A DNA stretch of 64,000 nucleotides from positions 33,982,296-34,046,295 of the forward strand of contig NC_091945.1 in NCBI RefSeq assembly GCF_041260155.1. The letters are read 5' to 3'. Position numbers and translations under genes: made by a program. This document shows positions 15,930 through 51,969 of this stretch, one piece after another (the first letter of the stretch is position 1; every line of letters begins with the position of its first letter). The DNA is from Ptychodera flava (lineage: Eukaryota > Hemichordata > Enteropneusta > Ptychoderidae). The notes beneath the pieces are model-generated. The model saw only the letters and a program-made list of their open reading frames with translations. It had not been told where the DNA came from and did no database searches.

Positions 15930-16230
15930 AGCACCTTGATTTGACTAAAGAGTTGTTAGAAATCGATGTGTGCATCGAATGTTTGTTTATAGAATCAAAC
16001 AATTTTCTTTCAGCTGAAAACGAGCATTACAAAAAACGGTATTTCAAGATCACATACTTGAAAGGTTGAGTATTAAAACGCATTCGACGTCAAGTGGGAT
16101 GAAGCCGTGAAATGTCTATTTGTCGGCAAATACTGAAATCCCGAACCAAGTCGGGTACAGTACTTTATCATTATTAACTTCAATATATGAGAGGACTGGA
16201 ATGTTCAATGAACTCTTGAGGAATCATATG
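15930..16230. repeat. Partial ~1.8-kb tandem unit U0
   Basis: Resembles 17845-18015 and 19925-20110: a word like CAGCTGAAAACGAG, then AAGATCACATACTTGA, then a stretch ending in GTCTATTTGTCGGCAAATA. It appears to be the 3' part of a unit whose earlier part is lost or too diverged to see. Confidence 0.5.
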
Positions 16231-18015
16231 GATAGAGTATGTTATTGAAAAAGTACTTCCTCTTTGCTTGAGGTCAAACTGTAGCCCAGTTTGCTATTTT
16301 CCGGCGTGATTTGATTGGATTTGAGTACCTTCATAGGTGATGATATGAACTCATAAGAAAATATTTCATAAACAAATTTCTTAGCACTTTTCAGACATTT
16401 TCGTATAGCATATTTTCATAACACTAATTATCCACACAAGTTGGTGACCTTCCATGCAAAGGATGTAAAATTCATGTTTGTTTTCTAGATAAAGATAAAA
16501 CGGCTAAAAAATTGATATTATTTAATTCAAGTTGAACAATATGTAACCTGACATTGCCTGGAGTGTAAAAACTATAAATAATCGACATTTTGGCAGCGAC
16601 ATGATTCATGATTATACATTTAAGACACGCCCGGGCGTTGTAAGTCAAGTTTATACCTTGAAATTCAATATTAGCTCGCAAAGCCTGGGCCAAAATTCAG
16701 CACAAAAGATAAAAATGGCATCATACTTTACTGCCCTTTTTTTCCTTAATCTTGTAAACAAAATCGCAAATCTTACATCCTCGGAATTACAGGTCGCTCA
16801 TTTATGTAGGAAATTAGCGTCAATAAATGATGCTGAACAAGCATTTCGTGAAAGGTAAGTGTTGTGATTTTTTCAAACTCATATTATCAGTTACGAAGAT
16901 GTTCTGATTCGACCAACCAACCCTAGACCGCAGGCAAGATGTGATACAGCCCCTCCTTGAGCGAAGAAGAACCACTTGTTCAATAACAATATTTTTCACA
17001 TAACTCAGTTAAAATTTCAATCTCATCATCTTTGTGAAGGTTATTAAGTAAGAATACGGGATGTATTAGTAAACTTAAGTGTAACAGCCCCAATGTGTTA
17101 AAACAAATACCATGCAAGTACCAATGTGATGATTCATTTGATGTTGAGATTGCACGACAGGTGAAGGCTGCAAAAGAAATAGAGCAATAGTGTATTTATC
17201 GTTATTTCGTGACTTCCACGGTGAAATAGCACAAGACTGGCAGCAACAATGTCAGTATGAATGATTTGATTCAGTAAAGTCGAAAAAATGTCAATAACAT
17301 GTGGAACAGAAGATATTGCTTGGCTTCACGCCTCTAAAGCCTGGTAGCTCGCTGCGACTCTGGAATGTACGTAACTATACAAATCACCCATTCTTTGTAA
17401 CAATATGTGTGGAGACAAAAGAATCAATAACACTTTTGTAAGGTTTGTTGTTCTTTGGTGTAGATTTCGTTTAACCAGGAAAGCCGGCATAAACGTAGTA
17501 AATTTGTCGTTTGAAATAACTTGTCATATGTTCAGAGTGTCCGGAGTCCTAAAAGAACAATTTGCACAGGAGGACGCAGTGGACTACAAAGTTGATATTA
17601 CAAGGACAATACAAAGGCACCACTGCGTATGAATTGTCCTATAAAAGACAATGCAACGCATGAGATTGAAAATAATACAAGATCAGATGTTTAATCATAG
17701 ACTCAGAGGAAGTATAGGAGCTCAGCCTGTAAAACTCAATTAATATTGCACATAAGTCAGCTACTCTTGATAAAGTGAACAAAAAAGTGGCCCTCAATTT
17801 TAAAAAATATTTGCTTTACGAAAATGTTGTCAGCAATTGATGTATGTGCTGTTTCAAACGACACAATTTTTTGTCAGTTGAAAACAAGTATGACAAAGTA
17901 GCTCAAGCTCACACACTTGATAACACCTTGTCGAATATTTCGACGAAGTAGACTTTGGGATAATAAAGTGTCTATTGTCAGCAAATATTCAATCACCAAC
18001 TAATTCGTATATGTT
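16230..18015. repeat. ~1.8-kb tandem unit U1 (module I)
   Basis: The unit begins near GTATGTTATTGAAAAAGTAC, followed by TTCCTCTTTGC, and its start recurs at about 18015, 20190, 40640 and 42530. A small frame at 16601-16858 (internal ATG at 16715, MASYFTALFF) ends at AGGTAAGTGTTGTG, a good donor that the copy at 41310 keeps; the frame itself is not kept there, so a coding role is doubtful. The common middle word GGCTGCAAAAGAAATAGAGC is at about 17166. No recognisable protein. Confidence 0.65.
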
Positions 18016-18299
18016 ATTGAACAAGTAGTTCCTCTTTCCTTACCGTCAAGCTGTAGCTCGCTGTGCTACTCTCTTGTGTGATTTGGTCGATTTAGAACAC
18101 CTTCATTGCTGATGGCATGAGGTCGTAGGAAAATACTTATATAAAAACAATCCCAACACTAAGTTTTTCAGAAATGTTTGCCAAGCATGTTTTCATGGGC
18201 AAAAATTACCTACATACCAACATAGGTGATGGTATGAACTCGTAAGAAATAATTTCATAATCAACAAAATTCTTAACACTTTACTTTCCGGACATGTTC

Positions 18300-18780
18300 G
18301 TCCAGCATATTTTAATATCACTAATTATCCACACATGTTGGTGACCTTTCATGCCAATGTTGTAAAAATAACGATTTGAACTAATTTGGGATAATTCGAT
18401 GGTGAAGTAACCCCGCCATGCATTGTAAAATTACATGTTGTTCAACTTCAAGTAAATAACATCAAATGTTTCACCCTTTTTATTTGATCGAGAAAACTGA
18501 CATCAATTTTAACACGATTGGAACTAATTTGGGATAATTCGATGTTTAAATTTTTCAAATTTCTAAAAAGTGTTAGGTGCCCTATAACTGACTTTTGCGA
18601 TGTTACCAATTACTCATAAAAACAAGTGTTTAACTTAAAAAGAAAAGCAGATGAGGTTACATTTGCAGATTAAATTGATATTACTTCACCATCGAATTAT
18701 CCCAAATTTGTTCAAATCGTTATTTTTACAACATTGGCATGGAAGGTCACAAACTTGTGTGGATAATTAGTATTATGAAA
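18300..18780. repeat. Long inverted repeat containing a MITE-like core
   Basis: Arms of about 150 bp: the left arm reads CTAATTATCCACACA, then CATGCCAATGTTG, then AACGATTTGAACTAATTTGG; the right arm repeats all of it inverted up to about 18780. Inside, GATTGGAACTAATTTGGGAT (about 18520) and GTTAGGTGCC match the MITE at 48885-49098. The outer parts of the arms are unit sequence that also occurs singly at 16425, so the palindrome looks like an inverted duplication formed around the MITE. Confidence 0.75.
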
Positions 18781-18786
18781 ATATGA

Positions 18787-18855
18787 TTGATTTCTACCAA
18801 CATGAGAAAAGATAATTTATACTCTTGTATCTTTTCTCATGTTGGTAGAAATCAA
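18787..18855. repeat. Perfect 28-bp stem hairpin
   Basis: TTGATTTCTACCAACATGAG and the next eight bases at 18787-18814 pair exactly with 18828-18855 across a 13-base loop. The stem adjoins the larger inverted repeat. Confidence 0.9.
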
Positions 18856-18940
18856 AGTATGTCATCTTATTGTTTCTTTCTGGCTTCGGTATCCGACAGC
18901 CACGATACTGTATAAATGGACACTCAGAAAGGCAGGGAGA

Positions 18941-19030
18941 TGGACCGACTCACGCAGGGACTGACTCGCGCATGGACCGACTCACGCAGGGGCCGACTCA
19001 CGCAGCCACACTCACAGGCAGACTCACAGA
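18941..19030. repeat. GACTCACGCAGG minisatellite
   Basis: Four or five imperfect ~20-bp copies centred on GACCGACTCACGCAGGG, degrading to CACTCACAGGCAGACTCACAG. It is GC-rich relative to its surroundings. Confidence 0.75.
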
Positions 19031-20189
19031 CTGATGTATCAGTTGCTGGGCCGTGAGCCCTGGCCATGGGTCCGTATTCAATAAACAACTTCAAGTTCGA
19101 CATCATCACTCATCGTCAGTTTCAGCTTCTTTCTTTGTCAGTGATTGTGACAGTGTCACAATCAATACCAAGCACCGATGTTCTGATTCACTTGAGTTTA
19201 AAATCGATAAGATCGCACCACAGAGGTAGGCCGCAAAAGAAATAGAGTAACAGCATATTCGTCGTTATTACATGACTTCCATCCTGAAATAGCACAAGAC
19301 TTGGTAGTAACAATGTCAGCATTAATGATTTAATTCAGTAAAATCGAAGCTATATCAGAAATGCGGATATTACTTGGCTACACACCACCAAACCTGTTGC
19401 TGTTTGCGGCTCTGGAATGTACACAAATACAATCTGAAATTCTTTGTAACAATGTGTGTTGAGACAAAATAATGAATAATACTTTTGTTAGACTCGTAAT
19501 TCTTTAATATAGATTTTGTTTAATTTGGAAAGATAGACGAAATAAATGTTTTTGTAGTGTCCTTGTAAATTTGTGTCGTATCAGGATTTTCAAATAATAT
19601 TCATTAGTCATATCCCTTCCTAGTCTTCTTAAAAACAATTTGGACAATACGCAAATGCAGAGGTCTACGAAGTTTATATTTGCAAGTACGATAAAGAGCA
19701 CCACTTTGTGTGAATTGTCCCATAGAAGACAAAGTAACAAGATATTGAAAATAATACAAGATCAGATGTTTAATCCTAGACACTGAGGAAGAAAAAGAGA
19801 TCGGCCTGTAAAGTACCAATCTCATTCAATTAATGTACATATAAGACGGATAATCTTGATGAGATTAACGCAGCAGTAGGCTCTTAGTTTTTAGTATCTT
19901 GTTTCACAAAAAACATTGTGAAGCAATTGATGTATGCGGTGTTCAAACAATCGCATATTTTTGTGAGTTGAAAACACGTATGACACAGTAGCTGTATTTC
20001 AAGCTCACATACTTGATAGCACCTGGTCGAATACTTCGACGAAATAGACGTTAAGTTGAGGATAAAGTCATAAAACGCCTATTGTCAGCAAGTATTTTAA
20101 TCTCGAACTAATCCATATGTACTGCCTTATGGGTAATAAACTTCAATAAACAATAAGACCGGAATATTAGGGGAGCTCACGTTAATAAA

Positions 20190-20911
20190 TTATTTCATTG
20201 AACAAGTATTTCCTCTTTCTTTTAAGGAGGGCTGAAGCTCCCTTTGCTACTCTCTGGCGTGATTTGGAAGATATGGAACACCTTCAATATTGCTGAATAT
20301 ATGAGCTCCAAACAAAATACAATCCTAACTAGCTTTTCGGAAATATACGTTCACAATATTTTCATGGACATAAATTATCTACACAAGACGACGACATGTG
20401 ATTGGGAAATTTAAAGTTAACAATTACGTTGGCTAGGTTAAAAGACAATGACCGTAAATTTTGATATCATTTTATAGCGACATTGTCTCCCAACCTTTGC
20501 CAAATTATGTTGAAATTTCAAGTATGAGCCTTGCAAACATATCACATTGTGTTTAAAAAGCCAATTCATAGTTGATTAGTAGACGTTTGTCTGGAGAACA
20601 TTCGGTTGAAGCAGGAATTAATATTTAGTAGAAAGTCAACAAAACGGTGCCTCACCATGCATTAATCAGCAAGAAGGACAAAGCCGTAAAAAGGACCTTA
20701 CATCGGTTGACATTATGTGTGGTTGATATTGGTTTGAACGATTGTGATTCGTAACTTTACTATTGTTTAGTCACTGATTTCACGGCCAAAGCAAATGAAT
20801 ATAAAATAGCTAAATTCATTCAAATGGTGCAATTTCTATCGCCAACGATTGGGAAGCTACTAATTTGAAGAAACTCAACAATAGAGACGATGATCACACA
20901 AAATAGCGTAT
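20190..20911. repeat. Tandem unit U3 (module I), cut by the LINE
   Basis: Aligns with 42530-43245 of module II: TAATAAATTATTTCATTGAA, then TTTTAAGGAGGGCTG, and the end ACAAAATAGCG. The LINE begins seven bases after the shared sequence. Confidence 0.7.
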
Positions 20912-21484
20912 TAAACTTTTCTTGTATGGTGGCGCTGTTGATCGGCAGCCTTTCAGATTGTCTCCTCTCTTTTTGGAGATTTTTTCGTTGTTTGGACGTG
21001 TTCCGTTCAAATTTTTATCTGCATAGTATTTTTAAAGTCTTCAAGCATCAATCCTGATCTGTCCTTCCATTCGTAAGGACTGTCATTCACCGTCATCGAG
21101 GATTTGCTTGGTACAATTGCTGGTGTTTTCATCATGGCAACCCGGTTCCCGTTCTCCTGGCTCGCCGTTCATGTCCATTGTCACGATGGAATCCGCTTAC
21201 GACCAATCATGTTGGAGTGCCTTTTAGACCACGAGGACGCAAAGCTGGGTTAAAACATCCCAAACCCAGCTTTCAAATTCCGTCTATTGTCAATACCAGC
21301 AATCGCACCTACAGGATGGTTCAACTTTCTTCAACAAGGGTGTTGCGGCAGATTCCGATCACCGTACATGCTGTTCCAGTTTTAGAAAACAAGCACGAAG
21401 CCATTCAAAGGATAACAACATGCAGAACAGCAACCCCAGCTGCCAAAACACGACATCCTTTTTATGTAAAAGTTCCAAGTTGTC

Positions 21485-22640
21485 TTTGAGTGTTCAAAAA
21501 CTTCAACTGAATGCTGCGTTGTGGAACGCTCGATCTGTCAATGGGAAGATCGGCGCTATAGTATCTACATTGATCGACGATAACCTGGACCTTTTAATCA
21601 TCACTGAGACGTGTGGCTAAAATGTGACGATGATCCCATAATTGCCGAATTTCATGCTTCCATCAGCGGGTATAACATCCATCAACATCATCGCATGAAA
21701 CGTAGGGGCGGCGGCGTGGCTGTCATAACACGTTCCAACCTTCAGGTCATTGAAAAACGATGTTGCGCATTCCAGTCATTCGAATCGTTGGGTATTACTT
21801 AGTCTGGCAGAGACCCTGCGATTCGCGTTCTTCCAAGCGTCAGTCAGTTGCACGCGCGCGCCCTTCAGAGACGCGACGCGAATCCCAGGGTCTGGACGTT
21901 CTTGCAAGCGACCGGTCGGATTTCTGCCTGATCCGGGTACTTTATGGAACTCCACACATCCGTTAATCAAAACAAAAATGACAAGTACCATAGCCAAATA
22001 AAATTAAAAATGAAAAATAAAAACATACCGCGTATATTGGTCTACCAGCTACTTGTATATATTCTCTCCACGCCGTTAGATAGGTTTTTCTTTTGACGTC
22101 ACTACCCTTATGAATATTCATATACTTGCAAGAACTGACAGTCGCTGTGTCTGGCAGCGCGTGCTCACAGCTGCACAGCGTAGCCTTCGAATGCAGGCTC
22201 AACTTTGGCGCGCGCAAAACAAGGCACAGCGACTGTGGAGAGTCTAGGTATTACTGTGCGTTCGTCCAGTCAGCTACTGAACATTCATGTCTTATATCGT
22301 CCACCACACTCATCGAAGAACACTTCTACAACAAATCAGTTTATTGCGGAATTCACATCTCTTCTTGAAAGCGAAGTACCATCGCCCGGACACCTCTTAA
22401 TCGCAGGTGACTTTAACTTCCATGTTGATGACACCAGTTCGCCAGACGCAGTCAAACTGCATGATTTGCTGGACTGTATGGGCTTACAACAGCATGTTCA
22501 CACTTCTACCCACGTTAAAGGACACACTCTTGATCTTCTCGTGACTCGAACAACTGGACCAGCATCTACATTCTGTCAGAACTGATGACTCGCTCATCTC
22601 TGACCACAGCCTCGTCCACCTCAAGCTGAAAGTACAGCGC
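21485..22640 (+). pseudogene. LINE ORF2 endonuclease domain
   Basis: APE-type motifs in order: NAALWNARSVNGK, DLLIITET, then RRGGGVAVI, then beyond the inserted element HVLYRPPHSS, LLIAGDFNFHVDD and finally SDHSLVHL. The catalytic Asp/Asn of GDFN and the terminal SDH histidine are present. Frame changes occur near 21615 and 22580, and the 447-bp insertion splits the domain between the two ESLGIT copies. Confidence 0.85.
21800..22246. mobile_element. 447-bp non-autonomous DNA transposon inside the LINE
   Basis: GGTATTACT at 21791-21799 and 22247-22255 is the target duplication, also visible as the repeated peptide ESLGIT. The element starts TAGTCTGGCAG and ends GAGAGTCTA. Each end has its own hairpin: 21811-21828 pairs with 21876-21893 (17 of 18), and 22139-22149 pairs exactly with 22225-22235. 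There is no coding capacity. TAG...CTA ends and a 9-bp target duplication match the element at 3266. Confidence 0.85.
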
Positions 22641-22860
22641 CCAGCAAATACGATGCTAAAGATCTCTCGTCGCAGCTATGACAAGATGGACGGTGCCGAT
22701 CTACATAACAAACTTTCATTAAAACTGTCGAATCGCCCACAGGATGCTGATATCGAAAGTCTTTCTTATTTTTTCCATGAGGCTGTCACAGAAGTTCTCA
22801 ATGACGTTGCTCCAATAACTGACAGACGTATAACCAACAAGGTAAGAGCACCATGGTACA

Positions 22861-24567
22861 GTGAGGAACTCAAGAAAGAAATTGCGACGGCTCGAGATGA
22901 AGTGGCGTAATTCACAGCTGGAGATTGATCGGCAGATTTTCATTCAAGAGCGATCTAAGTATGCCCGACTTTGTGATCAGATCAAGTCTCGTTACCACCG
23001 ATCGCGAATACAAGAAGCGGACAGTAAGAAACTCTTTACTATCATTGCTGAACTGTCATCTGTGAAATCGCGTTCTGCCAATTCCGAACCGGATAACATC
23101 AGTAAGGATGATCTGCCATCGAAATTTCTTGAATATTTCGAATCGAAGATATCAAAGCTCCGGAACGGGCTGTCTGTGCAAATTGACCAGTGTGATCATA
23201 CCAGACTACCATCCCACATTCTAATTAAATTCACTCCTGTTACAGTCGACAACGTTAAGGGCCTCATCAAGAATGCTCCATCAAAGTCGTGCGAACTTGA
23301 TGTCTTGCCGACTAAGTTACTCAAGAACTGTATGGACGTTGTAACACCTTTCCTTACACATCTTTACAACAGCTCCCTATCGTCAGGTATAGTTCCTAGC
23401 CGTTTCAAGACAGCTATTATCCTACCACTGTTGAAAAAACCCAATCTCGATAAAAACATACTGAAAAATTATAGACCTGTGTCTAACCTTCCCTTCATAT
23501 CAAAAATTCTGGAAAGAATTGTAGCCCTGCAATTACGCGATCACCTCACCAAGTTTCGTCTCTTCCCTCGTCATCAGAGTGCGTATCGTTCCTATCACAG
23601 CACGGAGACAGCCCTGCTTCGTGTACATAACGACATCATGTGTGCGCTAAACAAGAAAATGGACGTTGTTCTCATCATGTTGGATCTGTCGGCTGCGTTT
23701 GACACCATAGACCACGAAATCCTACTTCAAAGGCTTGAATCTCGTTTTGGCATTACGGGAACAGCTTTATCTTGGTTCCGCTCTTACCTTGAAAATCGGA
23801 CACAATCTGTAACAGCTGGGACTGCGTCATCCTCTAGCTCTCATGTGAAATATGGTGTTCCTCAGGGATCGGTGTTGGGACCACTTCTTTTTACGCTCTA
23901 CATAGCACCTTTAGAGGACATTATCGCGGAACACGGCCTTGAATGCATGATGTACGCGGATGACAGTCAAGTTTATGTTATTTGCAACACGCCGGCTGAT
24001 GTGCGCTCTTGTCTCGAACATTGCATTAGCAACATTCGGATCTGGATGAAGTCAAACATGCTGATATTAAATGACGACAAGACAGAGGTTATCCATTTCT
24101 CATCAAGGCTCAAATCGGACGTGTCGGTGATGGCCAATCTCAGGATTGGCGACTTTGACATCACACCCTCCACCTCTGTGCGGAATCTTGGTGTTCGGCT
24201 GAACAGTGACGGCTTTATGTCTGACCAAATCAACCAAATATGCAGGAACGGATATTATTCTCTATACCGTATCAGCAAGATCCGCAAATTACTTGACAGA
24301 AGTACCACCGAGACATTGATCCATGCCTTCGTCACATCCCAATTGGACTACTGCAATAGTCTCTTGTACGGAGTATCAAAAGAACAGCTTTCACGATTGC
24401 AGTCAGTTCAAAATGCTGCTGCACGTCTCGTTACACAATCACGCAAATTTGACCATATTACACCCGTGTTGATCGACCTGCATTGGCTTCCAATCGAAGC
24501 TCGAATAAGATTCAAGGTTCTGTTAATCACTTATAAAATATTAATGGTATTGCACCCATGTACTTGA
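22861..24567 (+). CDS. LINE ORF2 reverse transcriptase domain
   Basis: An open stretch of 568 codons covers the entire RT: KNYRPVSNLPFISKILERI (fingers), MLDLSAAFDTIDHE (motif A with its catalytic Asp), YGVPQGSVLGPLLF (motif B) and MMYADDSQVYV (motif C, catalytic YADD). It then continues through the thumb region QLDYCNSLLYG to LHWLPIEARIRFKVL. The first ~12 residues (MRNSRKK...) are out-of-frame readthrough: the true protein enters by a frameshift near 22895. The last ~80 residues lie in another frame at 24558-24797 (YLSDFIELYVP, APFLWNSLPSEIRS). All catalytic residues are present, so decay is recent or light. Confidence 0.9.
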   Translation: MRNSRKKLRRLEMKWRNSQLEIDRQIFIQERSKYARLCDQIKSRYHRSRIQEADSKKLFTIIAELSSVKSRSANSEPDNISKDDLPSKFLEYFESKISKLRNGLSVQIDQCDHTRLPSHILIKFTPVTVDNVKGLIKNAPSKSCELDVLPTKLLKNCMDVVTPFLTHLYNSSLSSGIVPSRFKTAIILPLLKKPNLDKNILKNYRPVSNLPFISKILERIVALQLRDHLTKFRLFPRHQSAYRSYHSTETALLRVHNDIMCALNKKMDVVLIMLDLSAAFDTIDHEILLQRLESRFGITGTALSWFRSYLENRTQSVTAGTASSSSSHVKYGVPQGSVLGPLLFTLYIAPLEDIIAEHGLECMMYADDSQVYVICNTPADVRSCLEHCISNIRIWMKSNMLILNDDKTEVIHFSSRLKSDVSVMANLRIGDFDITPSTSVRNLGVRLNSDGFMSDQINQICRNGYYSLYRISKIRKLLDRSTTETLIHAFVTSQLDYCNSLLYGVSKEQLSRLQSVQNAAARLVTQSRKFDHITPVLIDLHWLPIEARIRFKVLLITYKILMVLHPCT

Positions 24568-26060
24568 GCGACTTTATTGAGTTGTATGTTCCGGCAAGAA
24601 ATCTCCGGTCCATGGAAAAGCTACGTTTAGTCCCGCCAAAAGGGAAGTATAATAAGTCCTATGGCCATAGGGCCTTTTCTGTTCATGCTCCTTTCCTTTG
24701 GAATTCATTGCCATCAGAGATTCGCTCTGCAAAAAATGTTGAATGTTTTAAACGTGCTTTGAAGACTTACCTTTTTACTGAGTTTTATCAACTGTGATTT
24801 TTAGCCATTTTGCTCATTTTACGCTGTTTTTACTTCCTTTCCAAATTTCTTTGCGATATTTGTGACTTTTTATTTTAAAACTACCTTTGCTCTCATTTTA
24901 GTCATGTATTTTTTTTCCTTCAGTCATGTACAGCGCGCTGAGACGTATGTGTAGTGCGCTTTAAAGAAGTTTTTAATAATAATAATAATAATATAATAAT
25001 AAACTTACTCAAACTTCACGATTTATTCGTTCTACTGGCCACACACAAAATCAAAATATTTTGTTGGCGAGCGGTTACGTTTTCTCCATGAACGCATTTT
25101 ATGGAGTATTTTCGAGTATTTTCCTCGAAACGTAATGAGATTTGAGACGATTTAACGTTCAAGATATGTAATGCGATGTCATTCCCGGAACTCACCGGGA
25201 GAAGCGTATTTCTATACTCAATGACGAACAATCAAGGACAGCGATAGATACAGTCCATCTTCTCCGGTTTACATGATTGTCCTTGACATATCATCCAAAT
25301 AAGGAAATACCACAGTCATGCTGCTTTGTCATGCACAGGGACATAGATCTACGGTGATCCATGAAGAGAAGAAGCCATCTAGTCTTGTGGAGATCAGTGT
25401 TGATTATGTCGCCCTGATTAAAGTCTTACCAGTTGTGAGGTCAGGCTTGGCGTTAATTCGTCAAAACTACGGTAAAATAAGTTTCAACTTCTATGTACGA
25501 TAGATATAACGGAATATGTATGTGCATGTTTAATACCTTTAAAAACAACAATATTGCGCCCGGAATGGAAGCATAATGGGGTATGGACATTGAAGCAATT
25601 TTTTACCATATTTTACATTGTGTTGCTTACATAATCACAATCATACCAATCCATAATCCAGAAACAATAAGTCAAAATTCGTAATACATAGTCAGTTGTA
25701 AAAAACAAAAACACATAACAGCACAGAACAGACAGCAAAGCACCGGCATACACACAATAGTCAAATTCGTGAAAGAAAGATATATGGACCTCTTGCAAAG
25801 ACCAACGAATGTTGTCAAGTGCTTCGGAAATAGTAAGGGAGCCTTCAGTAATTACAGGGGAGGGGTGGGATGGGGAATTCCGTGCGCATCTGTACTGTAA
25901 AATGTGACCCCTCCCTCTTGTCAGACATTCTAAAACTTGACCCTCCCCTCAATGACTGCAGCATTCTCCCCAGGATTAACTGAACCAGTATCGGCTAAAT
26001 TACATAAAAATTGGTTTTATTAGCTCACGTGTGTAAACACGTGGGCTATTGTCATAGCGA

Positions 26061-26138
26061 TGTCTGTCTGTCTGTCCGTGTGTGTGTGTGTGTGTGTGTT
26101 AGTGTGTGTGTGTGTGTGTGTCTGTCTGTCTGTCTGTT
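26061..26138. repeat. (TGTC)n/(GT)n microsatellite
   Basis: TGTCTGTCTGTCTGTCCG, then two GT runs separated by TTA, then a second TGTC run. Confidence 0.95.
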
Positions 26139-26269
26139 TACACGATAACTCAAAAACGCCTGAACGGATTCAAGTCAGATTTGGTACACAGGTACCATGT
26201 GGTACTTGTAAGAACTGATTAGATTTTGGTCAGTGTGGCTTGCATATTAATGAAGTTATGCAATATCGA

Positions 26270-39727: not shown

Positions 39728-39729
<2 letters not shown>

Positions 39730-39792: not shown

Positions 39793-39794
<2 letters not shown>

Positions 39795-40639: not shown

Positions 40640-43250
40640 TGTAGTTCCTCTTTCCTTACCGTCAAGCTGTAGCTCACTTTGCTACTCTCTGGCGTGATTT
40701 GGTCGAATTAGAACACTGTTATTGCTGATGGCATGAGGTGGTAGGAAAATACAGCAATCCAAACCCAAAGCTTTTCAGAAATTTTTGCTCTGCATATTTT
40801 CATGGACACAAATTATCTACATACCATCAAAGGTGGTGGTATGAACTCGTAAGAAAATATTTCATATACAAAATTTTTAACACTTTGCCTTAAAAAATGT
40901 TCGTCCAGCATATTTTCATGAGAGCAATTTCAACACTACATACTCTCAACTGTTGTACAGTCCATTTTATTGCTCCACTTTTTGATTGATTGAATGTTGA
41001 ACATTACTAGTTGACCTTTCACTTTAGATAGAATTTTGACCGGATACGAGTCCATTAATTACCTTTGACATTGGCCCTCTTACACGAAACGATGCCTATG
41101 TAAGGTCCATATCTTGAAAATCAATATTAGTTTGCAAGGCCTTGGCGACAATTTAGCATAATCGATAAAAATGATATCTAACTTTACAGCCGTTTTTCTT
41201 TTATCTTGTAAGCAAAATTACAAATTTTACACCCTCGCAATTACAGGTCGTCAATTTGTGTAGTAAATTAGCGTCAATGAAACATGGTGAATGAACATTT
41301 CGTGACAGGTAAGTGTTGTGATTTTCTCAAGCTCATATTATCAGCTGATTCGACCAACCCACCCTACAGCGTAGCAAGATGCGATACAGCCTTGCCTTGA
41401 GCGAAGAGGAACCACTTTTTCAATAAAAATATTTTTCACATAAATCAGTTAAAAATCAGTCTAATCATTTACTTTCATGTGAAGCTTATGAAGTATGAAT
41501 ACGGGGTGTTTACCCAGTAATCTTAGTGTAACAGCTCCATCGTAATACAATGAATACCAAGTAGCGATGTTATGATTTACTTGAGATTAAAATCGATGTT
41601 GAGATCGCACGACAGGTGAAGGCTGCAAAAGAAATAGAGTAATAGTATATTCATCTTTATTACGTGACTTCTATCGGTCAAATAGTACAAGACTTGGCAG
41701 CAGGTATGTCAGTATGAATGATTTGATTCAGTAAAGTCTTGAACATGGCAGAACTCTGAAATAGAAGACACTGCTTGGCTTCACTCCTCTTTTTGCTTTC
41801 TGATGAACATAATTACAAATCACTCATTATAGTTGTACCAATATGTGTAGAGACAAAAGAATCAATAATACTTTTGTAAGGTCTGTTATTCTTTGGTGTA
41901 GATTTTGTTTAACTCGAAAGATGCCACAAACATTGTAAACGTGTGATTTCAAATCAGTTGTCATATGTTCCAAGTCTCCGGCCGCGGAGTCCTAACAATC
42001 AATTTGCACAGTAGGCAGCACAATAAAGTGTACCACTGTGTATGATATGTCCTATAGAAGACAATGTAACATGAGATTGAAAATATACAAGATCAGATGT
42101 TTAATCATTGACTAAGAGTAAGTGTAGGATCTCGGCCAGTAAAATTCAATTCACATTACATATAAGTCAGCTATACTCTTGATAAAATGAACAAAACAGT
42201 GGCTCTCCGTTTTAAATATCTTTGTTTTACGAAAACGTTGTCAGCAATTGATGTATGCGCTGTTTCCAACGATCGCAATTTTCTGTCCGTCGAAAACAAG
42301 TATGACGAAGTAGCTGTATTTCAAGCTCATCTACTTGATAGCACCTGGTCGAATATTTCGACGAAACAGACTTTAAGTGGGGGACTGAGAGAGCCATAAA
42401 ACGCCCATTGTCAGCAAGTAGTTTAATCTCGAACTAATTCATATGTAGCGTTCTATTGGCAATAACCTTCAATAAATGATAAGACCGGAATGATAGGTGA
42501 ACACTTACGTTAATAAATTATTTCATTGAACAAGTAGTTCCTCTTTCTTTTAAGGAGGGCTGCAGTTCGTTTTGCTACTCTCTTGGAAGAAATGGAACAT
42601 TCATTGCTGATGATATCAGCTCCAAACAAAGTACTTTATATAAAACAATCCTAACACTTAGCTTTTCGGAAATATTCGTTCACAATTTTTTCACGGACAC
42701 AAATTATCTACGCAAGACGACGACATGTGATCGGGAAATCTAAAGTTGACAACTACGTTTGCTAGATTGAAAGACAGTGGTCGTAAATTTTGATATCATT
42801 TCAATCAATCAATTTTACCGTAGACAACAGCTAAATGTCTCCAACTTTTTGCCGAATTATATTAAAATTTCAAGTATGAGCCTTGCAAACATATCACTTT
42901 GTGTTAAAAGGGCCAATTTCACAGTTGATGAATGGACTCTTGTCCGGAGAACATTCGGTTGAAGCAGGGATTAATATTTAGTAGAAGGTCAACAAACAGG
43001 TGCGTCACCATTAATCAGCAAGAAAGACAAAGCCGTTAAAAAGACCGTATATCAGTTGAGATAATGCAGTGTTGAAATTGGTTTGAACGATTGTGATCCG
43101 CAACTTTACTACTGTTTAGTCACCGATTTCACGGCCAAAGCAAATAAATAAAAAAATAGCTGAATTCATTAAATGGCACCGATTGGGAAACTAATTTGAA
43201 GGAGCTTAACGATAAAGACGATGGTCACACACAAAATAGCGTTTCAAGCT
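40640..43250. repeat. ~1.8-kb tandem units (module II)
   Basis: Unit starts at about 40640 and 42530 match the starts at 16230, 18015 and 20190. The conserved donor word GGTAAGTGTTGTGATTTT is at about 41309 and GGCTGCAAAAGAAATAGAGT at about 41620. The second unit runs without a break into block beta-2, giving the empty site for the LINE of module I at about 43243-43252. Confidence 0.7.
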
Positions 43251-44083
43251 TAGTCAAACTTCACAATTTATTCGGTTTACTGGCCACATACTACATCAAA
43301 ATATTTTGTTGGCGAGCGCTTACGTTTTCTCCATGAACGCATTTTATGGAGTATTTTCGAGTATTTTCCTCGAAACGTAATGAGATTTGAAACGATTTAA
43401 TGTTCAAGATATGTAATGCGATGTCATTCCCGGAACTCACCCGGAGAAGCGTATTTCTATACTCGAAGACGAAAAATCAAGGACAGCGATAGATACAGTC
43501 CATCTTCTCCGGTTTACATGTCTATGACATATTATCCAAATAGGAAAATGCTATGGTCATGCTGCTTTGTCATGCACAGGAACATAGATCTACGGTGATC
43601 CATGGAGAGAAGAAGCCATCTAGTCTTGTGGAGATCAGTGTTGATTATGTCGCCCTGATTAAAGTCTTACCAGTTGTGAGGTCAGGCTTGGCGGTAATTC
43701 GTCAAAACTACGGTATAATAAGTTTCAACTTCCATGTACGATATATATAACGCAATAAGTATGCGTATGTGTATGTGTATTACATTTAAAAACAACAATA
43801 TTGCGCCCGGAATGGAAGCATAATGGGGTATGGACATTGAAGCAATTTTTTACCATATTTTATATTGTGTTGCTCACATAATCACAATCATACCAATCCA
43901 TAATCCAGTAACAATAAGTCAAAATTCGTAATACATAGTCAGTTGTAAAAAACAAAAACACATAACAGCACAGAACAGACAGCAAAGCACCGGCATACAC
44001 ACAATAGTTAAATTTGTGAAAGAAAGATATATGGACCTCTTGCAAAGACCAACAAGTGATGTCAAGTGTTTCGGAAATAGTAA

Positions 44084-44579
44084 GGGAGTCTTCAGTGATT
44101 ACAGGGGAGGGGTGGGATGGGGAATTCCGTGCGCATCTGTACTGTAAAATGTGACCCCATCCTCTTGTTTAAATGTGACCCTCCCTCTTGTCAGACATTC
44201 TAAACCTTGACCCTCCCCTCGATGACTGCAGCATTCTGCAGCAATATAAAATATAAAGCTGACAATATCTGTGCATTTATAGACTTTGATAATTTACATA
44301 CACTTTGTAACCTGTCCCAAATGTTTTTTTCCTCTTTGTTTTCTTTCATCAGTTTTAGCTATCAATGTGTTTAATGTAGGATACCACTGCATCTTCTTTG
44401 CTTGTGAAGCTTGTCGATAATGTGTATTTAAAAGAATCAATGTATTTCGTCGGTGATTTCCTATTGAGGAAATATCACATGGACAATCGAAAAATGATCC
44501 TCCCCTTGGACGGGTTTCTAAAAAGTGACCCTCCCCAATTTCCCCGGCCCATCCCCTCCTATAATAACTGAAGGCTCCC
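44084..44579. mobile_element. TAA-target MITE family H1, short copy
   Basis: TAA at 44081-44083 and 44580-44582. Ends GGGAGTCTTCAGTGATTACA and, inverted, GGGAGCCTTCAGTTATTATA. It sits at the same site as 25837-28693 and lacks the satellite-carrying insert. Confidence 0.9.
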
Positions 44580-44831
44580 TAAGCGCATCCTGCCCTACAT
44601 GTTGCGCCTGCCATATATAAATCTCTAAGTCAAATACGTAGTGTCACCAACTAAGGACCAATATCACTGACGCCATCAGCGATCATTTGTCGAAGACAGA
44701 TATCATACTTATCTACCAGCTTGTGATACCTGCCAAAAAAGCGTTTAAATGTTGAGACAAGTCTTTCTCTTGTGTAACTTTAAAAGTTTGCAAGAGAGAC
44801 GGCTATGTCTCTTTGCAAAATCACCATATGA

Positions 44832-45262
44832 ACTGTATGCTCTTTCATGTTGAATAAGCTGGGAAATGTATAACCCAAAAGTTGGTGAGAGTGGATATTA
44901 CTGATGAGGTGTTGGAAATTGATGATACTACAGTTGAAATCATCTATCTTGTCTTAAAACCTGGTAGAAAGGTGACCATTTGAGTCAAATTCAAGGAAAA
45001 TATCCAGATATGAGGCAGAAGAGGTCGTTTCTGTAGTTTCTTTAATTTCCAATTCAAATCATTGCGAGATAGTCACTGAATCTGGAATTATTCATTGAAA
45101 TAACATCGTCTATGTATCTAAACGTTTGGTTGAAAGTTCCAGCTGCAGAGGCCTTTTTGATTAAGTAAAATTCTGCCTCGTATGAGTACAGAAATAAGTC
45201 AGCAAGCAAGCCGGGGGGCAGAATTAGAACCCATAGGAATTCCTACACTCTATTGGAAAATG
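44832..45262 (-). mobile_element. Reverse transcriptase fragment, probably Penelope-like
   Basis: Minus-strand reading shows RT words GIPMGSNSAP, LADLFLYSYEAEF and the catalytic FRYIDDV, followed by EIKETTETTSSASYLD. This order is known from Penelope-like and related retroelements of invertebrates. Only the central RT part remains; it is broken, with a few breaks, and truncated at both sides. Beta-1 has about 90 bp of unrelated sequence at this point (28945-29035), so the fragment probably arrived after duplication. Confidence 0.65.
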
Positions 45263-45685
45263 TAAATATGTAGAATACTAACACTACCTCTTTGTAACGG
45301 CATCAAGCATTTTTTAGAAACATGCTTGGTTGATGTTTCTCAAGCGTTATTTCAATTTATCGTGTGGTATTGTGGTATACAATGCGGGAAATCGAAAGTT
45401 TTGATATTATTTTTGAAATAGATCTTAAGTTGAACCAGATATTTTTGTAATACAGCTAAATAGTCCATTCCTCCCCTCCACGTTGAAAACCCAGTTTCGT
45501 ATGCAAAACCACTGATGCTTCATTCAATCTCGAAGTTGTAATGAATGGTGTTTCATTTTATTGTAGAAATATTTCTACTAAGGGGCCTTAAATAATTAAA
45601 GCAAGCGCATGGTAAACGCAATGGAGGGGTTTGGCTGTATTTCGGTTACCGTGCGCATAATCGCACTACACGTTATTATATCACA

Positions 45686-46735
45686 TTATATTACCATGCC
45701 CTACCTGTCACATTTTGATTGGTTGAGCTGAACCACGTGACTGACCACAAATACACAGTAATGGTCTGTTTACATGTCCGTGAATATGAAGAATACGATT
45801 AACAACTCAAAGTATCGAAACTTTATAGCTCAAACGTAAATCATAATCAATCACAAAACAAAATGGAGCACTTGTGGACCAAGTTGAGATACTTTTTTCT
45901 GAAAATATATCCGGATTTGTCAATTTTTACAGCGCGCGTGACAGTACGTCGCATATTGCTCAGTTCTGGCGCCCAATTGTCGTTCGCTTGGGAAATTTTC
46001 GCAAATTTTGACGGTTTTCTTCGGTTCGTTGATAATATAACGGAAATAACAGACTCCTCTCCGACCATTAACGTTTATTTATGGGCGCGGGCTCGAGGAA
46101 AGCCAAATTAACGGGCTTGGCAAGCCTCGCCCGTTAATTTTTGGCTTTCCTCTCGCCTTTGCCCATGGCATAAATAAACGTTAATGGTCAGCGCATCGTC
46201 CGTTATTTCTATATTATATTACCATGCCCTGCCCGTCGCATTTTGATTGGTCGAGCTGAACCACGTGACTGACCACAAATACACAGTAATGGTTCGTTTA
46301 CATGCCCGTGAATATGAATAATAAGATTAACAACTCAAAGTATCGTAACTTTACAGCTCAAACATAAATCATAATCAATCACAAAATAAAATGGAGCACT
46401 TGTAGGTCAAGTTGTGATACTTTTTTGAAAACATTTCCGGATTTGCCAATTTTTACAGCGTGCGTGACAGTGCGTCGCGTATTGCTCAGTTTCTGGGGCC
46501 CAGTTGTCGTTCGCTCCTGAAATTTTCAGAAATTTTGACGGTTTTCTTGGGTTCGCTGATAATATAATGGAAATAACAGACTCCGCTCTGACCATTAACG
46601 TTTATTTGTGGGCGCGGGCTCGAGGAAAGCCAAATTAACGGGCTCGGCAAGCCTCGCCCGTTAATTTTTGGCTTTCCTCTCGCCCTTGCCCACAAATAAA
46701 CGTTAATGGTCAGCGCGTCGCCCGTTATTTCTATA
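45686..46735. mobile_element. Tandem pair of ~525-bp foldback elements
   Basis: Unit 1 is 45686-46213 and unit 2 is 46214-46735. Both start TTATATTACCATGCCCT and end CGTTATTTCTATA. Each has a 3' hairpin, at 46063-46189 and 46590-46711, with arms ACCATTAACGTTTATTT and AAGCCAAATTAACGGGC and their inverses. The sister block has an empty site at about 29457-29460. Units differ at several percent of positions, so the pair is not a very recent duplication, or two copies inserted side by side. Frames here are short and not conserved. Confidence 0.9.
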
Positions 46736-47166
46736 ATATCCGGCCCGCGACACGCTTTTATGTATCGCAAAATACTGCGCTATATTGTTTGGCGAGAACC
46801 AGGCTAGTGCGGCACAAGTTATACACCAGCATTCCTTTGACATACATGCTGTTCATGCACTGTTCATCGTATACGAGTAAGATAACGTAACAATCATTTT
46901 GTATACACTGTTTCAATTCATTTTCATTCTGTTGGTTGCGTCATTGTCGAGTTGGCGCTGAACAAAGATTTATTTTAGAGGGGGTTATGCCGGGGTTGGG
47001 GTTGGTAGCGTATGCGTGATTTCATAGCGACATAATTACCGATTGTAGGTATGCTGAAAGAGAATGAGGCTGGGTTGGATTTTCGCACTTCCAAACTTTC
47101 ATTTAAGGGAGGGGAGGGGGTTAAGGCCAAGTGGTCTTAGTTGAGTTTACCGTGCCCATGTTTTAA

Positions 47167-47495
47167 AGGGACAAAGTCGCCCATTTTTTCATGAATTTTG
47201 TTTGATACGAGATACTGCTTTATATCATTTGACATGTTGAAAGATATTGATTAAATGGGTGACCATGCGTATATTCGACCCCGATTTTTGACAAATTAAA
47301 TGAAACCGTGGTGAAAATGAACTATTGGTCATGACCATTAATTCATTTTCGCCATGGTTTCATGTATCGTGTCTAAAACGGGGGTCGAATATATGCATGG
47401 TCACCCATTCATTCAGTATCTTTCAACATGTCAAACAATATAAGTAGTATCTCGTATCAAACAAAATTCATGATAAAATGGGCGACTTTGTCCCT
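47167..47495. mobile_element. Palindromic MITE with TTAA target
   Basis: TTAA at 47163-47166 and 47496-47499. The 329-bp insert is nearly palindromic throughout: AGGGACAAAGTCGCCCATTT at the left is inverted at the right end, and ATGGGTGACCATGC recurs inverted further in. The sister block has TTGA and no insert at 29870-29873. TTAA targeting with an AGGG start fits Kolobok or piggyBac-like transposases. Confidence 0.9.
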
Positions 47496-48884
47496 TTAAT
47501 TATCCACGGTCCCTAACTTGGCGGTCAAAATACTGGCAAAACCCTGCCTTTGGTAACTTGGTAACGTACATGCCATACCAATGTCACCGTATTTCTTGAA
47601 GATTGCTCAAGACATTGGGTCTTCTTTTTCATTATCGATCAAGTTACCAGACTCTGTTGGTATCTTATCATTATATTTTCAAATCTGGACACTGGAGGAG
47701 GGTCGCCGTACAAGTATTCTCCGTGCATCATTTGAGCTGCAATGGGGCAATTTTGAAGTTTCTAGGAAGCTGTCTGTTCATTTAAATTATCGATAACAAG
47801 GGAATGTACAGGTCTGGGTCAGGCACCTTAAATGTCACCTTGAACTTTACTCTTGAACCGATCGTCGACTGACTTGTCATTCGCAGATTTAAATCGTGCA
47901 ACATTGACTTGGCATACTTCCGCCTAGCAATCATTCAAACCAGGCATTCGAAACAGTGCTTTTAACTTAGTGGAATCCAGTGAGTATAAAAAGTACCACA
48001 ATTCAGCTCTGCTGTCTCCATCATCATGTGGGTACCATGTAACTATTACACTTGTTAGTCTTGCAAGATCTTCGCTGTCGACGTAAACATAAACTTTTGG
48101 CCACGTATTATCCGTCTTGAGACTGCCCTTCAGCAAATGATAGAACTTAGACAATGTCGCTAACATGTTTTAAACATCTGCACAAGTTTATTTATTCTTT
48201 CTGATGTCATCCTTTGTGTCATTTTCCTTGAGGAAGAAGGTGAAACCTGAACTTTAATGGATTTCACAATTCTATCAAAGGGCTTGAGTTCCAACGTTTT
48301 TAGTATCGAATGCTTACATATATTACGAATTAACTCCTATCGGCCCGTCCGTAACTTGCTCTACCCCATTTTACCGCTTTCCAGTAAAGTTGGTAACTTC
48401 CTCTTCTTCGGAGAATTTACTCGTCGAGACCGGATACAACTACAAAGGGACGCTGCAAAATTGAAGTTGATGACGTTTACTGTAGTAATTTGTAGCCGCA
48501 CTCAGCAGTCCAGACCATCAAATGTTTAAGCCCCGCTTAAGTCTTGCAAAAGTTTTCTCTACACATAAAAACTTTGATATATAAAGATAACATTGAAAGG
48601 CATACTTGCAAATCTAAAATACTTTACAGGAAGTAAATTTATATAGGCTAGATAGAAAGAAAAGTACTTGGTAGAATGAAATTTATAATACTGGATTGAT
48701 AGTCTGGTGACGGTTATATCGACATCTAAAGCAATATCGCACTGCCAATTTCATCAGAAGTGATACCTCTGGTAAACAGTTATACCATCAAGACATATGG
48801 AGCCAACAGCTGATTTTACATACGTAGCTTAAAGCTTGGTCACCTTTATCCTAATTAGGTGACGGCCGTATGGCAGTAGCAGTA

Positions 48885-49098
48885 AACACGATTGGAACTA
48901 ATTTGGGATAATTGGATTTTTATATTTTTCGAATTTCTCAAAAATGTTAGGTGCCGTATAGCTGAATGTTGCAATATTGCAAATTACTCATAAAAACAAG
49001 TGTGTACTGTGAAAAAGAAAAGCAGATGAGATTATGTTTGTAGATTAAATCGGCATTACTTTACCATCCAATTATCCCGAACTAGTTCCAATCGTGTT
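48885..49098. mobile_element. 214-bp MITE with AGTA target repeats
   Basis: Terminal inverted repeats AACACGATTGGAACTAATTT and beyond, about 33 bp with few mismatches. AGTA flanks it at 48881-48884 and 49099-49102. Gamma-1 lacks it at about 34545. A related core is in the inverted repeat at 18300-18780. Confidence 0.9.
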
Positions 49099-49831
49099 AG
49101 TATCACTCTGAAGATCGGTAAACACCTTGGTTCGCGTTTAACTAGTGTACCTTTGTTGTGTTTGCTCAAATGTTTTGTGATTGAAATTTAAGTAGTGGTA
49201 AATGAACTTGATTTACAATAGAATGAAAAAATTAATCTATTTGTGACTAACAAACTTGTTTACCATATAGTTAAAGTTATAGAAATCACAATTAACCGTA
49301 ACGCGTGGATAAAGTGTTCAGAGATGTTTGTCAATTAACCAATGATCTTAACTTTGTCCTCAAAGGAATTTCATTTACGTAAATAAAGTCGCTGAATGCC
49401 TTTGTACTTAACATATTTAAATATATATATATTTTGACACTGCTGATAATGTACAGAAAGGGGCTGCAATGCTTAGGATTTTCAACATGCCAAGTCATAT
49501 GGTCAGTTCTCATTTAATCATAACACTCTTGAGGGAGAACAATCGCTTGAACAACCATTTCAACCATTTCATTTGATGTTCTTTGATCATATTTTCAGAA
49601 ACTATTTCTTCTGACGATGTTTTACAAATCAGTTTATCTTTGTCTGACTCGGATTACAGAGATAATCAATCAGAATTATCCTAGTTTCTTGATTACATAG
49701 TATGACTGAATAGGATAAGTGTAAGGGATTGTATTCACCTGCGAATTCCATTATGAAATGGTATCAAGCGACGAATTTGCTATACATTGTGTCCATCTAA
49801 ATGGCATGAAAATTTACGAAATGATAGTTCT

Positions 49832-50734
49832 TTATGTATGATTGTCACATTGCGTTTCTTTGGATAACGTCATGGTTACATAAAAATATTCCATCGCCGT
49901 TATCGCTCCTCGACGTTGAAAACCTAGTTTTGTGTGCAGAGCCTGCGATGCTTCCTGCGATTGTGCGATAGAAACGAATGGAATTTCATTTGAATCTAAA
50001 ACCATTTGCGCTAATTTGGCGGTCACAATACTCGAAAACCCTAGCCTCCGGTATCGGGGCATTGTATAGCTCATTCCAATTTCACCGTATTCTTTGACAA
50101 CGGCCCAAGATATCGGTTCTCCAGTCTGATTAAATATTGCAAGATGTTGTTGGTGTTTGATGGTATTTTCAAATCTTGACAATGGAGGAGGTTGTCCGTA
50201 GGTATACACTTCGCGAAGTACCCCTGCATGTTTGCGTTGTAATGGACCAACTTTAAAATCACGGGGAAGGGTTTTGGTCGCCATATGTATTATAGACTCG
50301 TTTATGTTATCAAGGACATAAGAGTTTCCATAAAAATAGAACTGGGATGTCGTACACAACTCCTTGTTCAGTAATTCTCTGATTGATTTGTCATTGGCAG
50401 ATTTTAACAGTGCAAAATTAGCTTTGCAATGCTCTTTCAAATTTAGAACGCCAGGCCTTCGTATAAGCGCTTTTAATTTTGCGACGTCCAACGCGTATAA
50501 AAAGTAATACGTTTCGGCATCGCCGTTTCTATCATCATTTGCATACCAGATGGCTACTACACTCGTCAGTTTGACAAGATCCTCGCTGTCTACGTAGACA
50601 TCAATTTTGGGCCACGTGTTGTCCGTCTTGACACTATTCTTCAGTAAATAGTAGAGAGTTAGACAATCTGGAGAACATCCTTTAAACATCTGCACAAGCT
50701 CCTTGATTTCTGCTGACGTTAGCTTTGGTATCAT
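49832..50734 (-). CDS. Glycine N-acyltransferase-like protein, gene 3
   Basis: An open frame of 300 codons starting MIPKLTSAEIKELVQMFKG, the tandem-module sister of gene 2 and highly similar to it through residue ~280. Two features stand out. The CoA-binding loop reads RRLGFS instead of RRQGLA or RRQGFA, so the final small residue of the Q/RxxGxG/A motif is Ser. Near the C-terminus one extra T in a T-run after GGAATA shifts the frame, and the ending FIYNQDMTQRK of gene 2 is replaced by an unrelated tail (YVTMTLSKETQ...). The start is chosen by the CCCACAG acceptor-like sequence before GAACAATG. It may be a functional diverged enzyme or an early pseudogene. Confidence 0.8.
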   Translation of the reverse strand: MIPKLTSAEIKELVQMFKGCSPDCLTLYYLLKNSVKTDNTWPKIDVYVDSEDLVKLTSVVAIWYANDDRNGDAETYYFLYALDVAKLKALIRRPGVLNLKEHCKANFALLKSANDKSIRELLNKELCTTSQFYFYGNSYVLDNINESIIHMATKTLPRDFKVGPLQRKHAGVLREVYTYGQPPPLSRFENTIKHQQHLAIFNQTGEPISWAVVKEYGEIGMSYTMPRYRRLGFSSIVTAKLAQMVLDSNEIPFVSIAQSQEASQALHTKLGFQRRGAITAMEYFYVTMTLSKETQCDNHT

Positions 50735-51969
50735 TGTTCCTGTGGGAGGAATCACATACGGACATTACTCACAAATACATGAGTTGAAGAGTAGTAAGAC
50801 TAGATAGGTTGCCATTTAATCAAATCTCTCAATAAAATAGCAAGTTTGGACCAATTCTATATTTTCATTAAAAAGTTACATTATTGCAAGTCATACATCA
50901 CGGGCAAAGTTCTGAATTTCAAGGTAATAACATTGTGTCACGAGTTGATAGCATATTGTGATGTGTATTCGACTAAACAGACCGCCGTTTTTAGGTGTGC
51001 CTATCATTTTAACCAATTTTTGAAAGATTATATAAATTACCTGTCACGTGATAGTTATGTAAACAACAGCGACACTATTGTAACCAAAATGTTTCCCTAT
51101 ATATAGGCTTTCTGAAAATATATAAATTTCAGGGGTTCTGTCCTTATTAATCACTAGAGAATTGTAAGCTGAAAAAGGTATATTTCTTGTCTTGGAACCT
51201 TAAATCGAAATTAGTATTTTTAGAATACATAAAACAACAAATGTTTTTTTCGCTTTCTGTCATGCCATCCGATTTAAGACTCTTCATCAACAGATGCCCT
51301 GTTTCGGGTATTTGAATTTGAATTTTACATTCGATCACGTTTGCCCTTTGTGAAAACAAGCATATCAGGTGCAGGCAACTGGTAAATTCGGTCAATTTTA
51401 TAAAATCATCACAAACATATTTCTAGGGCTGATATATTGATTTCGCATATATGTGACTATGACATAAACATTTTGAGGGGAAAGTGGAGCTGTTCGTAAC
51501 TGCCCAAACCATTATAGGCGGAAACCTATGCCCTTCAATTGAATTTTGATGCCCCACTACCCTCCAGTATCTATTGTCTATCCGCTCCCACTGCAATTTA
51601 AGATCTAAACTGCCCAATCTCAGCCACCGAGAGTTCCCTATTGCCCATTATAGATCTACATATTCCGCATGTACATTTCATTTATGCAACGTTTATCCAT
51701 CGCCCACTTATCAAATTAAACTTTGGACATTGCTCCCCTGTAAGTTAGGCGCTTAATCTTCCCTGAATTTTTACCAACCACAGCATTCCCCTCCCTCTGA
51801 CTATTTTTCGGTAATCACTGTCAGAAATTTCTCCCTGCCCACGCTATGACCTGAAAGTTCTTCCCCGTCCACTGTGAAAACTGATTTTCTCCCCTCCCAC
51901 TGGTTAGTTTTTAAAGTAGCCCAACCACTGATAATCTGCGCACCGACATATTTTTCACGAACAGCTTTG

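Follow-up and report, generated by a model that had tools for sequence, protein, structure and literature searches.

The window analysed here, 64,000 nucleotides of the hemichordate Ptychodera flava (contig NC_091945.1, positions 33,982,296 to 34,046,295 of the forward strand), contains two copies of a module made of tandem satellite-like units, a pseudogene (beta) and an open GLYAT-like gene (gamma). All positions below are those of the window, and the features are collected in Table 1. The two copies, modules A and B, had been noticed in a preliminary description made by a model from the letters alone, which suggested a self-comparison and a pairwise alignment as a check. Self-BLAST recovered an ordered chain of direct matches running from A 16.3–40.636 kb to B 40.82–51.954 kb in single pieces of at most 1.8 kb, so that the twofold, direct and adjacent order of tandem units, beta and gamma was confirmed. 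The module ends corresponded (A 40239–40636 matched B 51557–51954), and module B started directly after the end of module A, with a junction free of gap letters. In the stretches compared, the sequence past 51954 was unlike the A/B junction region and the region preceding A was unlike the region following B. No third beta-gamma module was found in the window by self-BLAST. The module is therefore present as a tandem segmental duplication, whose two collinear copies lie next to each other in the same orientation on one assembled sequence. Those items of the preliminary description that were checked proved accurate to a few bases.

Three genes of the window, gamma A, gamma B and delta 1, had matches to FR47 and Gly_acyl_tr_C above the Pfam cut-offs, and a C-terminal GNAT domain was present in all four GLYAT-like frames scanned. 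The N-terminal GLYAT domain of Pfam, which we take to be the family named Gly_acyl_tr_N, was absent from the matches up to E 0.1 of these three full-length frames, and for this reason the proteins are named GLYAT-like. The modules had been called GLYAT-bearing, and this stands for the C-terminal domain and not for the N-terminal one. By sequence, the best solved relative was 7pk0, a Glycine N-acyltransferase (E 1.8e-10 with gamma A and 8.3e-12 with a three-sequence profile), and on these matches gamma A, gamma B and delta 1 are GLYAT-like proteins. The structure predicted for gamma, with a mean predicted local distance difference test score of 36.6 and a predicted template modelling score of 0.32, was not used. 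In gamma B the last residues (about 16) are replaced through a frame shift at 49832–49885, and this gene may be on its way to losing its function. Both gamma frames are open and both beta copies are disrupted, in agreement with the first assignment of gene and pseudogene. Beta A and beta B have in common stops at gamma codons 111 and 221 (in the frame aligned to gamma), several insertions or deletions and element 2, and each carries additional private lesions. The common lesions imply that both copies descend from one beta that was already dead. The two modules are enclosed by a second family of duplicated GLYAT-like blocks, the delta blocks, at 275–3898, 52804–55791 and 60702–63665.

Apart from the tandem units, A and B differ in length by some 100 bp or more at 11 places. 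Four of them had been listed before and were all confirmed; the seven others were missing from that list. A readable insertion history had been claimed for the two modules, and the junctions, repeats and empty sites described here support it. The long interspersed nuclear element (LINE) of module A, previously placed at 20919–24999, ends at 25000 and is flanked on both sides by AAACTT, and the corresponding empty site of B (43246–43251) reads AAGCTT. The domains PF14529 and PF00078 (Pfam) correspond to its endonuclease and reverse transcriptase and, together with the simple-repeat tail at the 3' end and the target duplication, they make it a retrotransposon without long terminal repeats. Three inserts are unique to module B. 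The first had been described as a foldback pair at 45686–46735; it is real, but it is a direct tandem dimer ending at about 46739. Its boundaries read ATTAT on the left, ATTAT in the middle and AATAT on the right, and the empty site in A reads AATAT. The second, a palindrome flanked by TTAA, was found within one base of its expected limits (47167–47495) and lies within the right-hand end of shared element 2; at the empty site A reads TGAA, one base off. The third is a miniature inverted-repeat transposable element (MITE), which has AGTA flanks and terminal repeats and of which a relative (85%) lies at 18511–18720.

Two further elements occupy the same host position in A and B. PIF/Harbinger transposons are characterized by a three-base TAA target duplication and by terminal inverted repeats starting with GGG. 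The terminal repeats of elements 1 and 2 begin with GGG (GGC at one end of element 1 in A) and TAA is present on both sides, so that both have the ends of PIF/Harbinger-type MITEs.

Table 1. Features of the window, with the four strata of divergence between modules A and B.
Feature	Position	Strand	Remarks
Module A	15929–40636	+	Tandem units, beta, gamma; collinear with module B; start is the first tandem-unit match
Module B	40631–51954	+	Tandem units, beta, gamma; collinear with module A
Tandem units of A	15929–20918		About two units of ~1.9–2.1 kb and part of a third; internal inverted repeats
Tandem units of B	40631–43251		One unit and part of a second
Stratum 1	A 16653–25050		336/2095 sites differ, 0.160
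Stratum 2 (low)	A 25051–30525 = B 43296–48125		172/2940 sites differ, 0.059
Stratum 3 (high)	A 30526–35501 = B 48126–49905		340/1375 sites differ, 0.247
Stratum 4	A 35502–40636		179/1781 sites differ, 0.101
Delta 1, open GLYAT-like gene	1156–2118	-	Single open frame
Gamma A, GLYAT-like gene	35446–36363	-	Single open frame; FR47 / Gly_acyl_tr_C
Gamma B, GLYAT-like gene	49832–50764	-	Open; end altered by frame shift
Run identical in gamma A and gamma B	35732–35882	-	151 bp
Beta pseudogene, copy A	29228–30660	-	Split by shared element 2
Beta pseudogene, copy B	45459–48246	-	Split by shared element 2
Delta 2, broken	53627–53881		Only C-terminal part kept
Delta 3, broken	62723–63664		
Shared element 1, copy A	25837–28693		Terminal repeats, TAA flanks; split by 25968–28322
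Shared element 1, copy B	44084–44579		
Third copy of element 1 family, A only	30884–31678	-	Outgroup
Shared element 2, copy A	29346–29894		
Shared element 2, copy B	45582–47513		Carries two B-only inserts
LINE, A only	20919–25000	+	Endonuclease and reverse transcriptase, TAA-repeat tail, AAACTT target duplication
Insert nested in LINE	21800–22243		~440 bp; GGTATTACT on both sides; breaks the endonuclease region
Foldback-bearing dimer, B only	45686–46739		Two ~527-bp units in direct tandem order, with a palindrome at the end of each
Palindrome, B only	47167–47494		TTAA on both sides; outer arms 97% over 58 nt
MITE, B only	48885–49098		AGTA flanks; terminal repeats 94% complementary over 33 nt
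A-only stretch	25968–28322		2.35 kb, inside element 1; 147-bp satellite at 26418–27646
Reverse-transcriptase element remnant, upstream part, in A	28946–29031	-	NDFYIEEDIIGMLDFLIGNIF
Reverse-transcriptase element remnant, downstream part, in B	44831–45263	-	GIPMGSN, FRYIDDVISM
A-only stretch	30639–33827		3.2 kb; contains the third element-1 copy
A/B length difference	34975–35151		
A/B length difference	36523–36701		Inverted gene fragment
Inverted copy of gamma A 35772–35937	36535–36700	+	166 bp, directly upstream of gamma A; B lacks it
A-only stretch	36781–39397		2.6 kb; takes in most of direct repeat 36747–37115 / 37115–37423
A/B length difference	39728–40238		

The divergence between the two modules was uneven. 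Segmentation of the 8191 aligned sites under two penalties gave the same four segments (strata 1–4 in Table 1). Kimura two-parameter distances (K2P) followed the same pattern. They were 0.198 and 0.229 in the tandem units, ranged from 0.031 to 0.099 over the eight blocks of 25001–30638, and reached 0.299, 0.308 and 0.333 in 33995–35445. The gamma coding region (0.084) was followed by values of 0.182 and 0.177 on its 5' side and of 0.129 and 0.136 at the right end. A single rate was rejected (81 windows, dispersion 6.05). Under the stricter penalty, all 200 simulated homogeneous sets and all 200 sets with a coefficient of variation of 0.3 gave one segment; at a coefficient of 0.5, 192 of 200 gave one segment, five gave two, three gave three and none gave four. 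The best left edge of the low stratum was A 25050, with a range of 20916–25088 within 3.3 log-likelihood units (lnL), and its right edge was A 30526. These edges lie 50 bp from the LINE and 113 bp from the A-only stretch starting at 30639, respectively, and no large insert adjoins the third edge, A 35502. The low stratum consists of plain flanking sequence, two dead elements and most of the beta pseudogene, that is, of dead DNA, and constraint is consequently no explanation for the likeness of its two copies. Divergence steps that constraint does not explain are a mark of interlocus gene conversion, although variation of the mutation rate at the kilobase scale could also have produced them.

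A second mark of interlocus gene conversion was found in the gamma genes, which share a 151-bp identical run in a region where the outgroup paralogue delta 1 varies normally (47 of 151 sites differ across the run, versus 219 of 694 outside). Shuffling all 845 columns produced such a run in five of 10000 trials, and shuffling the 287 variable columns in three of 10000. The synonymous divergence (dS) between gamma A and gamma B was 0.133 (0.086–0.188), lower than the K2P of 0.33 in the adjoining 3' flank. The ratio of nonsynonymous to synonymous divergence (dN/dS) was 0.65 (0.44–1.07) between gamma A and gamma B, a value raised by the frame-shifted end of gamma B, and 0.23–0.30 against delta 1. 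The relative-rate test was flat: of 61 differences, 25 were assigned to gamma A and 21 to gamma B, with 15 left unassigned (P 0.66).

Each insert must be dated against its own stratum: the MITE at 48885 against 0.247, the foldback dimer and the TTAA palindrome against 0.059, and the LINE at the edge of a stratum. The LINE provides a second clock. Its coding part (2847 nt) contained four frame changes and no stop, whereas 11.4 frame changes and 3.0 stops (14.4 events) were expected on one branch since the split of the low tract. Assuming that the copy was intact on landing and that the indel rate is the same in coding and tract DNA, the frame decay places the LINE at 0.28 (0.08–0.71) of the tract-split age. 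The P value was 0.0039 for both classes of events with rate uncertainty included, and 0.028 for frame changes alone in a conditional test, and the LINE is probably younger than the homogenisation of the tract. The halves of the foldback dimer are 90% alike (BLAST), with a K2P of 0.084 (0.061–0.113). This is at or above the level of the tract (about 0.060 per site), and the halves were therefore probably already different at insertion; the element would represent two insertions or a ready-made dimer.

We propose that modules A and B are a mosaic pair produced by an old tandem duplication and by later interlocus gene conversion or misaligned crossing-over, a reading that we hold with good, though not full, confidence. 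In this model, the module composed of satellite-like units, beta pseudogene and gamma gene would have been duplicated in tandem long ago, and the two copies would then have exchanged sequence, through either gene conversion or crossovers in misaligned pairing. The stretch that begins immediately to the right of the LINE and runs up to the 5' end of beta would be the one homogenised last. For the right end and for parts of gamma this would have happened earlier or to a weaker degree, and for the stretch 3' of gamma (33995–35445) never or least. Transposons would have kept entering each module independently. The foldback dimer and the TTAA palindrome, lying inside the tract and in one module only, would be later than its homogenisation, and the LINE would also be younger, as judged from its reading frame. 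We infer both the order of these events and the role of recombination, as opposed to the local mutation rate, in making the strata.

Several observations weigh against this proposal. For a single conversion the low tract is long (2.9 kb aligned, 5.5 kb in A). The mean gene-conversion track reported in a human survey is 585 bp (PMC3790853), and since the tract is far above this mean, repeated conversion or misaligned crossing-over is likelier than a single event. The dS of gamma is close to the K2P of the right end (0.13) and is low against the 3' side only. The simulated controls varied 100-bp windows independently and so covered rate variation at that scale alone. The G+C content differed between strata: the most diverged one had 0.35 and the tandem units 0.36, against 0.40–0.42 for the tract, gamma and the right end. 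This contrast may be a matter of base composition and not of exchange; the higher values are possibly due to biased conversion. In the left stratum, the choice of partner within a tandem array may inflate the divergence.

The age of the shared elements depends on this proposal. For element 1, the third copy of the family (C) served as outgroup, and the K2P was 0.081 between A and B, 0.230 between A and C and 0.217 between B and C, with informative sites in the proportions AB:AC:BC = 62:14:14. The copies in A and B being far closer to each other than to the third one, the comparison supports a single insertion that was subsequently copied, by the duplication or by a later exchange. The elements at the same position in both modules had been taken to precede the duplication. 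The shared position and the single insertion of element 1 stand, and the precedence is not established. The elements lie in the 0.059 tract between neighbours at 0.160 and 0.247, and they may thus have reached the second module by copying at a time later than the duplication. The statement that a shared element is older than the duplication accordingly weakens to one that it is older than the last homogenisation of the tract. For the same reason the natural dating series seen in these inserts does not hold in its simple form, the A/B divergence falling into four strata; nor are the length differences at A 25968–28322 and at A 28946–29031 / B 44831–45263 clean insertions. The comparison of block divergence with that of the shared elements had been recommended; the blocks proved uneven (0.059–0.247), element 1 had a K2P of 0.081, and the A/B divergence is not a single clock. 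It is even conceivable, if doubtful, that after the duplication the beta region of one module was replaced by that of the other, through conversion or a crossover, and that the two transposons and the disabling mutations came along with it. Under this hypothesis, homologous copying, in place of transposition and new mutation, would have spread the transposons and killed a gene copy. Both shared elements would in that case be younger than the duplication, which inverts the order first described.

Recombination of another kind could have made the strata. A longer array of modules with repeated unequal crossing-over would leave A and B as hybrids of more than two ancestral modules, with the strata marking crossover points and with no need for gene conversion. 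This explanation, possible but clearly behind the one proposed, overlaps with it, the sole distinction being the type of recombination. It agrees with the wider GLYAT-like array formed by the three delta blocks and with the presence in A of about one tandem unit more than in B. On the other hand, a third beta-gamma module is missing from the window, and the identical run in gamma is short, more like conversion.

An unlikely explanation is a single tandem duplication without any later exchange, in which local mutation rate and constraint would account for the strata; the dating series of the preliminary description would then stand as written. The simple order and orientation of the modules, some constraint on gamma (seen in the dN/dS values) and the G+C differences between strata are in its favour. 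It does not easily accommodate the four-fold step from 0.059 to 0.247 between neighbouring stretches of pseudogene, transposons and non-coding DNA, nor the identical run in gamma where the outgroup gene varies normally. Slightly less probable still is that the inserts acted as fences, the low tract being cut off by the break in homology that the LINE makes on one side and the A-only stretch starting at 30639 on the other. The best edges are indeed close to these inserts, and a left edge placed exactly at the LINE is within 3.3 lnL of the best one. However, the LINE was probably absent when the tract was homogenised, as its few frame changes indicate, and would thus not have fenced the tract; moreover, the third edge has no large insert beside it, and the foldback and TTAA inserts inside the tract cause no step. 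Although alleles of a highly polymorphic species could diverge as much as the two copies of the low stratum (about 6%), two alleles or haplotypes wrongly joined by the assembler are highly improbable, as 6% followed by 25% in neighbouring stretches is unexpected of alleles, and as the modules abut without gap letters, have unequal numbers of tandem units and different large inserts, and both lie between delta blocks on one sequence.

Mosaics of this type have precedents. In the duplication units of the primate alpha-globin genes, non-homologous inserts interrupt the blocks of homology, and divergence follows a gradient. The modules described here resemble them in that the homology blocks of a tandem duplication are separated by non-homologous inserts; they differ in that the one datable insert at an edge, the LINE, seems younger than the homogenisation. 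No paper on this precedent was recognized by title among the literature matches listed. The human survey describes paralogues of segmental duplications that exchange tracts, with patchy divergence and underestimated ages, and warns that under interlocus gene conversion the divergence of paralogues is no reliable clock (PMC3790853). Here, in contrast to the short tracks of that survey, the tract covers dead transposons and a pseudogene. The hsp70 clusters of Stratiomyidae (PMC3071340) also combine partly homogenised tandem copies with diverged flanks, large insertions or deletions and transposon insertions, but homogeneity peaks there in the coding region and decays outwards, whereas here it peaks in pseudogene and non-coding sequence. 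Recurrent tandem duplication of gene families through non-allelic homologous recombination is described for another invertebrate group, the corals (PMC12314368), at a megabase scale and with phased haplotypes, compared to the single unphased 64-kb window studied here. Though well preserved, the locus is unexceptional as an instance of tandem duplication, exchange between paralogues and decay of transposons, and no new mechanism is needed. Its value is that of a compact and checkable case: transposon insertions common to tandem paralogues may tell when these last exchanged sequence rather than when they were duplicated, and two clocks, paralogue divergence and decay of the LINE reading frame, stand side by side and can test the order of events.

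The other length differences were of several kinds. The A-only stretch at 25968–28322 was rejected as a clean insertion into a continuous B: at this site the third copy of element 1 holds about 75 bp that are missing from B, which indicates that B lost sequence and that the polarity is mixed. The stretch of B at 44831–45263 was likewise rejected as an insertion, being complementary to A 28946–29031. The two remnants read as adjacent, non-overlapping parts of one element left by complementary deletions. From its motifs we take this reverse-transcriptase element to be Penelope-like; two reverse-transcriptase pieces from the B remnant were compared to Pfam and matched none of its families. The inverted fragment just upstream of gamma A is 95.2% identical to gamma A and 91.6% to gamma B, and it matches A at all six sites of its span where gamma A and gamma B differ. 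At the corresponding site B has 18 other bp. A transcript through gamma A and the inverted fragment, if made, would fold into a long hairpin. An 8:0 split of private changes between the fragment and gamma A was dropped as an indication of constraint, as the overlapping exchange between gamma A and gamma B makes it unsafe. The two-copy tandem repeats at 33934–34053 (60 bp, 100%) and 30919–31054 (69 bp, 98%) appeared very recent compared to the surrounding sequence.

The window as a whole has a G+C content of 38.2% and an observed/expected CpG ratio of 0.85. Rfam (at the gathering threshold) and ARAGORN gave no match in it. The matches of four proteins to NCBIfam were below the curated cut-offs or absent, and among five other small frames compared to Pfam three had no match and two had one weak match each, below the cut-off. 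Literature searches with GLYAT terms matched one paper, on trematode enzymes; 1,257 further papers matched in part, and the GLYAT term was absent from the 12 of them that were listed. Delta 3 is broken at 62802–63511 by a stretch of some 700 bp that bears terminal inverted repeats (ACAGACAAATATAGACACAGACT). A 216-codon open frame at 60079–60729 showed a weak match to a condensation domain (Pfam PF00668, E 1.6e-7, just above the cut-off), and the opposite strand was also open, from 60024 to 60692.

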